NCBI GenBank assembly: GCA_903862655.1
Contig: CAIOZA010000012.1
Location: 1 to 59,264, forward strand
Direction: 5' to 3'
Length of the DNA: 59,264 nucleotides
From: an uncultured Ignavibacteria bacterium
GTDB taxonomy: Bacteria > Bacteroidota > Ignavibacteria > Kapaibacteriales > UBA2268
In this document: positions 7,594 to 53,668 of the stretch, piece after piece
Layout: every line of letters starts with the position of its first letter
How positions within the stretch are numbered: the stretch's first letter is position 1
The notes under the pieces: generated by a model
What the model saw: the letters and a program-made list of their open reading frames with translations, nothing else
The model's database searches: none
Told to the model about the DNA's origin: nothing
Position numbers and translations under genes: made by a program

Positions 7594-8901
7594 ATGGCTA
7601 ATACTGAAACCAGAACAACCGAAGAATGGATTGAGTTCGGCGATCACGCCTTTAATAATGAGAAATACGATGAAGCAATCGTTCATTATGAAAAAGCAAT
7701 TGTGACAAATCCTAAATCAGCTTTTGCTTTTTTTAAATGCGGTAATTCTTATGCTGCGCTAAATAACCATCAATCAGCAATACACTTCTATGATACAGCA
7801 ATTACATTGAATCCTCAATTTTCTTTTGCTTATTTCAAACGAGCTATTAGTTATTTAGAATTAAAGGATATAAAAAGATCTTTTAATGATTTAAATTTAG
7901 CAATTTCTCTTAATCCAGAATTTTCTTTTGCTTATTATCGCCGTGGCTATTGCCATTATCTTTACCGTGAATATGATGTTGCAATCAAGGATTTTAACAT
8001 ATCAATTGATCAGAATCCTACAAATCCAGATGCATATTTTCACAGAGGTTGTTGTTATTTTGAGCTTCAGGACTATAATCAGTCAATACTTGATTTTACA
8101 AAAGCAATTGAAGGTGAACCCAAGAATGAAACAAATTACATTCAACGAGGAATGGCACTGAACAACCTACAAATGTACAAAGAAGCTATCCGAGATTTTT
8201 CAATCGCAATAAAATTAAATCCTGATAATATAAAGGCATACAGTTATCGTGGTCTTGTATTATGTAGAGTTAAGAACTTCACTAATGCAATTAAAGATTT
8301 TTCATTTGTTCTTGATAAAAATTCTAATCATATTGATGCTTATATCAATCTTGGAATAGCTTACATGTCAATGAAAGATTATCAAAACTCAATCCATAAT
8401 TTTGATAAAGCATTGGAACTGGATCCTAAATCAGCAATTACTTTTTATAATCGGGGTAATGCCTTTTCACATTCTAAAAAATACCTTGAAGCCATATTTG
8501 ACTTCGAGCAATCTATTATGTTGGATCCGCGCTTTGCAAATGCATATTTCGCTAAGGGTAATGCCAATATGAGGTTGGAAAGATACAAAGAAGCAATTAT
8601 AGATTTTTCTAAATCCATAACAATAAACCCAAAATTTTATCAGGCTTATATTAGCCGTGGAAACGCTTTTATGAAAGTTAAGTATACTAAAAATGCCCTG
8701 GAAGATTTTACATTGGCAATTGAAATTAAACCAGAAAATCCTTTGGTTTATCTGAACAGAGGATTGGCTTATAAGTCTGAAAGATATAATCCAGAAGCAG
8801 CCCAAGACTTTTTCAAGTTTCTTGAGCTATTCAAGCAAAAGAACCCAATGACCGACAAAATCAAGTCATGGCTGAATAAAAATGGTTTCCTTGGTGAATA
8901 A
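7594..8901 (+). CDS. Tetratricopeptide-repeat protein
   Basis: Almost the whole of this 435-residue protein is tandem 34-residue TPR units, about eleven to twelve. They have the usual W/L-G-Y-A-F-A-P spacing and repeated phrases such as FAYFKRA, AIKLNP and AYxxRG. There is no signal peptide or membrane segment, so it is probably a cytoplasmic scaffold. No catalytic domain is attached. It is transcribed alone, divergent from the DJ-1 gene, and ends at a strong bidirectional terminator. TPR content alone does not define a partner. Confidence 0.88.
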   Translation: MANTETRTTEEWIEFGDHAFNNEKYDEAIVHYEKAIVTNPKSAFAFFKCGNSYAALNNHQSAIHFYDTAITLNPQFSFAYFKRAISYLELKDIKRSFNDLNLAISLNPEFSFAYYRRGYCHYLYREYDVAIKDFNISIDQNPTNPDAYFHRGCCYFELQDYNQSILDFTKAIEGEPKNETNYIQRGMALNNLQMYKEAIRDFSIAIKLNPDNIKAYSYRGLVLCRVKNFTNAIKDFSFVLDKNSNHIDAYINLGIAYMSMKDYQNSIHNFDKALELDPKSAITFYNRGNAFSHSKKYLEAIFDFEQSIMLDPRFANAYFAKGNANMRLERYKEAIIDFSKSITINPKFYQAYISRGNAFMKVKYTKNALEDFTLAIEIKPENPLVYLNRGLAYKSERYNPEAAQDFFKFLELFKQKNPMTDKIKSWLNKNGFLGE

Positions 8902-52385: not shown

Positions 52386-52392
52386 TATTTTT

Positions 52393-52740
52393 AATATTTA
52401 ATCGCTACGCGATATTTTTTGCATCTTTTGCATCAATTTCATCGTGTTTTTCGTGTTTCAAATTAGCATCAGAAAAAATACAATTACACAGAGAACCACA
52501 GAGTATTTTGTATTCTCTGTGTGACTCTTGTATTCCTCTGTGAAGCTCTGTGTAATTTCTTAAATATAGTTGAGAGAACCACAGAGAAAAACAAATTACA
52601 TATTTTGCATCATTTGCATCGGAAATCTGCACTTTTTGCACTATTTTAATAAATAACGAGTTATGAAAATATTCTCTAACAGCCTTATTTTTCAATCAGC
52701 TTATTTTTATAATTGCATCATTTGCATCAATTGCATCGCG
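52393..52740. repeat. Repeat unit A, copy 1
   Basis: The unit starts AATATTTAATCGCTACGCGA, runs through GCATC repeats, then a hairpin with perfect 12-base arms AATTACACAGAG (52482-52493) and CTCTGTGTAATT (52546-52557). It ends in further GCATC repeats. It is about 348 bp long and nearly identical to copy 2 over most of its length. Confidence 0.8.
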
Positions 52741-52779
52741 TTTTTTGTTTTCTGCATCGAAGATGCTGAATTTGAATAA

Positions 52780-52848
52780 CCGCGGGTGAAACCCGTGGAG
52801 GTGAACAAAAGAACCCCACCCTAGCCCTCCCCGCGAGCGAGGAGGGAG
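52780..52848. repeat. Two foreign palindrome families inserted between unit copies
   Basis: CC(G)CGGGT-GAA-ACCCG(T)GG at 52780-52798 is a near-perfect palindrome. It is followed by a C-rich segment ending in CCCTCC (825-830 of the 52,000s) facing GGAGGG (52841-52846). Both are unlike unit A and much more GC-rich than the surroundings. Confidence 0.6.
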
Positions 52849-52964
52849 AAATACAAATTGCAATTTTTGAATTATTTGCATTGTGTTTTTCATTTTTTTT
52901 CAAGTTAGGGATTTGATATTGGTAGAAAACCGTACCCCCAAACAAAATTACATCGCAGATGTTA

Positions 52965-53303
52965 AATATTTAATCGCTACGCGATATTTTTTGCATCTTT
53001 TGCATCAATTTCATCGCGTTTTTCGTGTTTCAAATTAGCATCAGAAAAAATACAATTACACAGAGAGCCACGAAGTATTTTGTATTCTCTGTGTGACTCT
53101 TGTATTCCTCTGTGAAGCTCTGTGTAATTTCTTAAATATCGTTGAGAGAACCACAGAGAAAAACAAATTACATCATTTGCATCGTGCCTTTGCACTTTTT
53201 GCACTATTTTAATGAATAATGAGTTATGTATAATTTCTCTAACATCCTTATTTTTCATGCATCTTATTTTTGTAATTGCATATTTTGCATTAATTGCATC
53301 GCA
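52965..53303. repeat. Repeat unit A, copy 2
   Basis: The copy lies 572 bp from copy 1 and begins with the same AATATTTAATCGCTACGCGA. The 12-base hairpin arms are at 53054-53065 and 53118-53129. It differs by a few substitutions and by a 9-base loss in a GCATC run. Its 3' half keeps the GCATC, TTTTTGCACTATTTTAAT and AATTGCAT words of copy 1. Confidence 0.8.
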
Positions 53304-53313
53304 AATTTTAATT

Positions 53314-53452
53314 TTTCAAGTTATCATCAGAAAAAATACAATTACACAGAGAACCACAGAGTATTTTGTATTCTCTGTGTATCTCTTGTATTCCTCTGTG
53401 AAACTCTGTGTAATTTCTTAAATATCGTTGAGAGAACCACAGAGAAATACAA
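53314..53452. repeat. Repeat unit A, partial copy 3
   Basis: Only the central part is present, from the ATCAGAAAAAATACAATTAC word through the hairpin arms (53340-53351 and 53404-53415) to GAGAGAACCACAGAGAAATAC. The ATCGCTACGCGAT head and the GCATC tail are missing. Confidence 0.8.
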
Positions 53453-53483
53453 AAAAGCATCAGACATATCTTTTTCCCAGATC

Positions 53484-53546
53484 GCTCCGATGGAGCTATG
53501 ATCATTTTATTAATTTTTTTCTACACACAGTTCGCTACTACGTAGC
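53484..53546. repeat. Paired short palindromes
   Basis: GCTCC-GAT-GGAGC (53484-53496) and GCTAC-TAC-GTAGC (53534-53546) have the same form, a 5-bp stem with a 3-base loop, as ATCGC-TAC-GCGAT at the head of unit A copies. They suggest a family of short mobile or structural palindromes. Confidence 0.6.
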
Positions 53547-53668
53547 TGAATATCACCCGATGAAATATGCGAAATAGAATCGAATATTTCAAAGAAACGG
53601 TTTAAAAATAATATTAAAAAGAAATATATATTATATTCCAAAAATCCAGTTAGGGATTCATGAAATTT

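Follow-up and report, generated by a model that had tools for sequence, protein, structure and literature searches.

Inverted word arrays around GxxExxY genes point to a possible enzyme-and-repeat element type behind some common bacterial repeats

Introduction

What are the repeats crowded into a short island between two open reading frames, and with which enzymes do they belong? The question is raised by the contig analyzed here, a stretch of 59,264 bp that we call the window, which is one of the 148 contigs (C12) in the 4.07-Mb genome of an uncultured Ignavibacteria bacterium. The island spans approximately positions 52391 to 53608 and has as neighbors an ORF of 176 aa without a Pfam match on one side and a DUF2889 ORF on the other. 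Among named records, the best match to a neighboring protein comes from an Ignavibacteria MAG, at 55% identity.

The analysis points to inverted arrays of short words around GxxExxY genes as a so far unrecognized kind of element, pairing an enzyme with repeats, from which some of the common but unexplained repeats of bacteria may derive. A very common uncharacterized family would gain a DNA partner, and hence a testable function, and a set of short repeats in environmental genomes would gain a candidate source. In addition, TnpA subclass 1.2, tabulated in 2018 without REP, sits among palindrome doublets in this class, and for both enzyme-repeat pairs coevolution becomes directly testable in small genes.

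Results

The island is a mosaic of dispersed repeat families

The island is put together from repeat families that are unrelated to one another and dispersed genome-wide. Every feature that a previous, sequence-only reading had named in it, including hairpin units, GCATC runs, and palindromes, was located in its sequence:

52393-52739, no strand: local duplication, left copy; pairs with 52965-53302, 316 identical over 347
52401-52413, plus strand: ATCGCTACGCGAT palindrome with a 5-bp stem, end of another chain like that at 52900-52985
52476-52590, plus strand: unit A copy 1, core 52484-52555, gene-less inverted word arrays TTACACAGAG...CTCTGTGTAA; model match
52596-52760, plus strand: GCATC module copy 1, with words arrayed over 52607-52620 and 52715-52737
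52780-52798, plus strand: ACCCGTGG palindrome, CCGCGGGTGAAACCCGTGG; REP-like, repeats on several contigs
52825-52847, plus strand: CCCTCC/GGAGGG element, CCCTCCCCGCGAGCGAGGAGGGA palindrome; REP-like
52900-52985, plus strand: second palindrome chain, GGTAGAAA motif, ACATCGCAGATGT (52950-52962) and ATCGCTACGCGAT (52973-52985), both 5-bp-stem palindromes; doublet-like build
52965-53302, no strand: local duplication, right copy; pairs with 52393-52739
53048-53162, plus strand: unit A copy 2, core 53056-53127; model match
53168-53310, plus strand: GCATC module copy 2
53334-53448, plus strand: unit A copy 3, core 53342-53413; model match
53484-53546, plus strand: palindrome doublet, GCTCCGATGGAGC ... 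TTTTTTTCTA ... GCTACTACGTAGC; resembles the kind flanking TnpA subclass 1.2 genes
53484-53496 and 53534-53546, plus strand: 5-bp-stem palindromes within the doublet

The duplication is real, but its description as nearly identical over 340 bp proved slightly generous, since the match falls into two slightly overlapping pieces, one of 96% identity over 225 bases and one of 83% over 147 bases. Recurrence of the words across the genome was borne out by at least 62 own-genome matches to island DNA, a lower bound because 40 of the 133 candidates were scored. Each part of the island matches different places in the genome, and the parts are therefore separate families; the GC-rich inserts do look like the separate arrivals that they had been taken for. 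The proposed landing area for REP-like elements describes a minor part of the island, the 5-bp-stem doublets, but not the main unit A, which is not REP-like. A plasmid search gave no match.

Unit A is a sharply bounded, noncoding repeat

Unit A is 115 bp long and is present in three island copies; the starts first given for it (52393, 52965, and 53314) belong to three existing copies but take in flanking sequence. The amplified 115-bp unit is longer than its 72-bp core, which has no coding capacity, has inverted ends, and occurs at nine places in an own-genome sample of 452,723 bp that was partly chosen for repeats, with one variant base allowed per end. In an alignment of 13 copies, conservation ends at both edges, and the sequence outside is unrelated in most of them. 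A covariance model built from 14 copies gave 23 partly overlapping matches in the own genome, 14 of them above 110 bits. The sequence-only reading would have been refuted by a lack of copies elsewhere: these exist in the own genome, although the exact 115-bp form was not found in any of 39 relatives searched with the covariance model (93 candidates scored per genome).

The unit also folds strongly. As RNA, with dinucleotide shuffles for comparison, the plus strand of the three copies gave z-scores between -5.5 and -6.0, and the minus strand of the one copy folded reached -4.3; as DNA, copy 1 reached -3.7 on the plus strand and -3.0 on the minus strand. Target-site duplications were not readable by eye in the flanks, and the words of unit A were not found in open-licence PMC full text.

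CACAGAG words lie beside GxxExxY genes

Of the 296 genomes of the phylum, 21 contained the exact sequence CACAGAGNNCCACAGAG, made of two adjacent words (backward control, 0 among the matches listed), and at some of the loci read these words adjoin ORFs of the GxxExxY type. This family (PF13366/TIGR04256) belongs to the PD-(D/E)XK nuclease superfamily and has proteins of about 120-130 aa. The L303 protein, for example, scores 160.8 bits with TIGR04256 (cut-off 35) and 156.4 with PF13366 (cut-off 22), and the catalytic-type residues D and ExK are 98-100% conserved in 54 GxxExxY proteins. In the accessible parts of open-licence PMC text, we found no link between repeats and GxxExxY, PF13366, TIGR04256, or PDDEXK_3.

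All 21 genomes holding CACAGAGNNCCACAGAG have PF13366, a co-occurrence that is weak evidence alone because the family is already present in 102 of the 149 class genomes. The positional association of CACAGAG words with PF13366 genes is strong: among the 81 pattern matches listed (95 were counted), 15 were located at most 500 bp from a PF13366 match, where uniform placement would give 0.16. The remaining 66 listed matches had no PF13366 match within that distance, and 12 of the 21 genomes had no listed pattern match near one.

Two or more CAC[AGT][AG]AG words were present upstream on the gene strand at 13 of 30 GxxExxY genes, downstream on the opposite strand at 13 of 30, and on both sides at 10 of 30, with the two wrong orientations accounting for 2 and 5 of 30. 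Among 24 transposase loci used as controls, one had two or more such words in any orientation; among 16 MBL loci, none did. Database entries for GxxExxY proteins often have N-terminal extensions that read such words, and the words themselves are frequent in the intergenic DNA of environmental bacteria; we treat both as leads and not as evidence.

Unit A matches (C6:6883-7145) come right after one PF13366 gene of the own genome (C6:6525-6872). Because this gene has an in-frame stop and no words upstream, no intact cognate enzyme was found in the own genome. GxxExxY genes with unit A-type word arrays do occur in relatives. Contig C99 of the own genome carries two more GxxExxY genes, L301:858-1199 and L300, each flanked on either side by arrays of GGATTACACGGATT or CACGAATT.

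The two flanks of many GxxExxY genes match each other in inverted order

For each gene, the upstream flank was aligned to the reverse-complemented downstream flank of that gene, and a score of at least 30 was taken as an inverted pair. This threshold was reached at 18 of 24 newly drawn GxxExxY loci of the class and at 18 of 29 loci of CACAGAG-positive genomes (one of 30 having been dropped for a short flank); among mismatched pairs the rate was 7-8%, and none of the 16 MBL-gene controls passed. The result was replicated at 80 further class loci, taken from among the PF13366 matches listed (not all were used, and some near contig ends were skipped): 41 of them had inverted flanks, against 2.7% of mismatched pairs. 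By subgroup, the counts were 24 of 45 for GPG proteins (4.8% of pairs mismatched within the subgroup), 10 of 19 for GxGFLE (5.8%), 6 of 11 for other proteins (0.9%), and 1 of 5 for GNGFQE (0 of 20 mismatched).

The named-record genomes (29 loci between L059 and L118) had PF13366 in 11 of 29, and inverted flanks were found at 11 of the 20 loci tested. These 20 came from 33 matches listed, 13 being omitted as fragments, as weak matches, several with in-frame stops, or for want of a fetched locus. The 11 passing loci include Ignavibacteria, Desulfobacteraceae, Gemmatimonadales, and Latescibacteria. Across the four sets, the share of GxxExxY loci above the threshold is only about a half to three quarters (41/80, 11/20, 18/29, and 18/24). 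Where the two ends match, they do so in a locus-specific manner. Within the arrays, words are most often spaced 8-11 bp apart.

Word type tracks the enzyme subgroup

The type of word at a locus tracks the subgroup of its GxxExxY enzyme. In the first set, GPG-type proteins had AG words at 38 loci, AT words at none, and neither at 4, and G[YF]GFLE-type proteins had AT words at 9, AG words at none, and neither at 1; two other proteins had no words. The 80 further loci gave 34 AG, 3 AT, and 8 without words for GPG, and 0 AG, 15 AT, and 4 without for GxGFLE, with 4 AG, 4 AT, and 3 without among the 11 other proteins and 1 AT and 4 without for GNGFQE. Words in the opposite orientation also reached the threshold at 11 of 45 GPG loci (AG) and at 5 of 19 GxGFLE loci (AT). 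On a protein tree of the 107 of 134 loci that had a word call, five changes of word type were counted against 27.9 in shuffles, and 0 of 500 shuffles went as low; this tree is built on few columns, many of its forks are weak, and the shuffles ignore relatedness.

Gene-less arrays and an empty site suggest a mobile element

The outer ends of the unit A core, TTACACAGAG and CTCTGTGTAA, are the same as those of a gene-bearing locus, L245. Presence and absence of a gene were also seen at one site within one genus, where 2 of 8 congeneric genomes have the GxxExxY gene and the other 6 have the two neighbors adjacent; in G285, the gene at this site has inverted CGCCAA-type flanks. Loss of the gene would account for this pattern as well as gain would, and the edges of the site are located less precisely than to the base.

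We consider that unit A is probably a gene-less, MITE-like derivative of an array - GxxExxY gene - array element, spread in trans. The full element would consist of an inverted array on either side of the gene, each array being about 40 bp long, with three or four 7-bp words (here CACAGAG) that point inward on both sides. The arrays would most likely be binding and processing sites of the GxxExxY protein, which we infer to bind, cut, and move them. An intact relative might act in trans on gene-less arrays and thereby spread them, and the lineage studied here would have amplified a gene-less unit to about 20 copies. The island itself may have grown by nesting, by local duplication, and by the arrival of unrelated REP-like palindrome elements.

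Extended to the whole family, the proposal becomes more tentative. It is conceivable, at somewhat short of even chances, that GxxExxY proteins are the enzymes of widespread, unrecognized selfish or mobile elements, each with one small PD-(D/E)XK nuclease flanked by inverted arrays of subgroup-specific words at a spacing of about 10 bp (CACAGAG/CGCAAAG for GPG and CACGGAT for GxGFLE), whose gene-less arrays are mobilized in trans and are the source of several very common, so far unexplained repeats between the genes of environmental bacteria.

Other explanations for unit A

The best surviving alternative, which we nevertheless regard as unlikely, is that the word arrays are operators through which GxxExxY proteins regulate their own transcription or translation, and that the gene-less arrays are relics of lost genes. 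That words track the enzyme would agree with such a role, as would several loci (L245, L246, and L248) at which the last upstream word stands just before the start codon. However, the downstream arrays mirror the upstream ones, and some 20 sharply bounded copies of unit A in different settings go beyond what gene loss alone would leave.

A REP/BIME-type element moved by a Y1 tyrosine transposase has very little probability as an account of unit A, even though other parts of the island are of that kind and the unit forms strong hairpins. The sequence-only reading had suggested looking for a mobilizing transposase of this kind, and the own genome does have 14 PF01797 matches, 13 of them above the cut-off, to tyrosine transposases of the REP-associated superfamily. 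Yet CACAGAG was found at none of the eight Y1 loci fetched (on six contigs, for 8 of the 14 matches), and CACAGAG words bracket GxxExxY genes instead. Unit A copy 1 has GTAG on neither strand and GTGG twice, on the minus strand only, within the paired arms of the predicted fold and not at its foot. The REP/RAYT candidate was dropped on the result at the Y1 loci.

Growth of the island without any enzyme, through local duplication and the slipping of simple words alone, is similarly improbable. Copies 1 and 2 are indeed a local duplication, and short words at a spacing of about 10 bp could slip, but this would not give copies that sit on many contigs and share their boundaries, or locus-specific inverted flanks around one gene family. 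Least credible of all is a structured RNA or transcription terminator kept by selection, a candidate dropped despite the strong plus-strand fold, since the consensus structure has two-sided change at 1 of 26 pairs and almost no covariation, all eight Rfam matches at E<=1 (miRNA, snoRNA, and scaRNA families) fall below the gathering score, and unit A was not found in the 39 relatives.

The proposed gene-less derivative of a GxxExxY element has known counterparts. MITEs, for which the parts of PMC3733652 available to us name RUP, NEMIS, and ERIC as examples, are like unit A in being short, non-coding, and dispersed between genes, with inverted ends and a possible autonomous partner. They differ in that the ends of unit A are word arrays with words about 10 bp apart and those of a MITE are one TIR sequence; moreover, the candidate partner gene is of the PD-(D/E)XK family and not a known transposase, and no target duplication was seen. 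REP/REPIN sequences with their RAYT (TnpAREP) enzymes, as described in the accessible parts of Quentin 2018 (PMC6006769), likewise combine a repeat-flanked enzyme gene with repeats dispersed alone and a cognate pairing of enzyme subgroup and repeat. Unit A departs from them in its enzyme class, in having no GT[AG]G at the hairpin foot, and in its direct word arrays in inverted order.

The palindrome doublet resembles the flanks of TnpA subclass 1.2 genes

The doublet at 53484-53546 resembles, in its sequence, the kind that flanks IS200-like TnpA subclass 1.2 genes. Three IS200-like genes (L031, L032, and L033) each lie among palindromes, and their DNA reads Y---Q--HH (YINNQEIHH in L031), which is the signature of TnpA subclass 1.2. 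Among the 26 homologous class loci listed (of 30), this motif is present in 25 and lacking in L220. The window doublet is tied to such flanks solely via better copies in the own genome: it matches a copy on contig C142 (E 6.8e-10), which in turn scores 52 against the L031 flank (shuffled maximum 26), whereas the window copy itself scores 25 (shuffled maximum 27). By its architecture only, the second chain at 52900-52985 may be of the TnpA 1.2 kind as well.

In the class, a GC-rich hairpin was found within 160 bp upstream of the TnpA 1.2 gene at 26 of 27 loci, downstream at 24, and on both sides at 23; these 27 of 30 loci had a recognized start, and L199, L218, and L220 were dropped. Shuffled flanks gave hairpins on both sides at 0.21 loci on average, and the 15 MBL controls had 3 upstream, 2 downstream, and none on both sides. 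An earlier consensus, CCGNAGG..., had 0 matches in the own-genome sample, and the pattern CGWAG... was used instead. At least five matches to this flank-derived doublet pattern were found in 23 of 85 genomes with the transposase and in 0 of 64 without it (Fisher p 8e-7, ignoring relatedness), compared with 1 and 0 for the backward control. Because transposase flanks had supplied part of the pattern, flank copies add to these counts, and genomes without the transposase are those not among the matches listed at E<=1e-15. In G336, 18 of the 20 pattern matches fetched share one doublet build; compared with the flanks of its own transposase, the stems differ, and the spacing and TAG motif agree.

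In the parts of PMC6006769 available, TnpA subclass 1.2 is generally without IS200 structures and is entered as 'no' under REP, and the REP rule calls for a basal stem of 7-20 nt with GTAG or GTGG 0-2 nt 5' of the structure. Because of that stem length, doublets with 5-bp stems would escape the search. The closest precedent for the doublets is that of TIRtrons/TIRYT: the portions seen of Di Nocera 2013 (PMC3733652) describe tyrosine-transposase genes between inverted, sometimes double-palindromic flanks, some of which belong to repeat families, and the main-text parts seen make no tie to the Y---Q--HH subclass 1.2. Since such flanked genes were already described there, the doublet finding extends a known kind.

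Other repeats of the island and the genome

GCATC words also stand about 10 bp apart and in one orientation in the island (52421-52434, 52607-52620, 52715-52737, and 52993-53006), a build like that of the GxxExxY arrays, but no gene was found between them; no inverted GCATC pair around a gene was noticed in an oriented listing of the own-genome sample. At the right edge, the GCGAAATAG..TTTCAAAGAAACGGTTT stretch (53565-53610) recurs, by eye, beside other islands (e.g., L138, L139, and L141), where it adjoins what look like secretion-domain genes.

Some palindromes lie within open frames. On contig C15 of the own genome (L136:6650-7050 and 8100-8420), GGGCGAAC/GGGCGGGTT and CCCTCC-type palindromes are found inside frames whose ends resemble C-terminal domains of the secretion type (SPNPASDF ... 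YFVRIGD); the palindromes keep the frame and add peptides such as TPTLPASREGV. On C6, a Y1 transposase gene (L038:1459-1959) has a GGGCGG...CCCGCCC palindrome within its reading frame and another beside it, as is described for TnpA subclass 2.4 in the accessible parts of PMC6006769. Fragments that look like members of a single Y1 transposase family are also scattered through the genome in a repeat-like manner (L127:5744-5987, L128:2140-2387, L130, L131, and L132).
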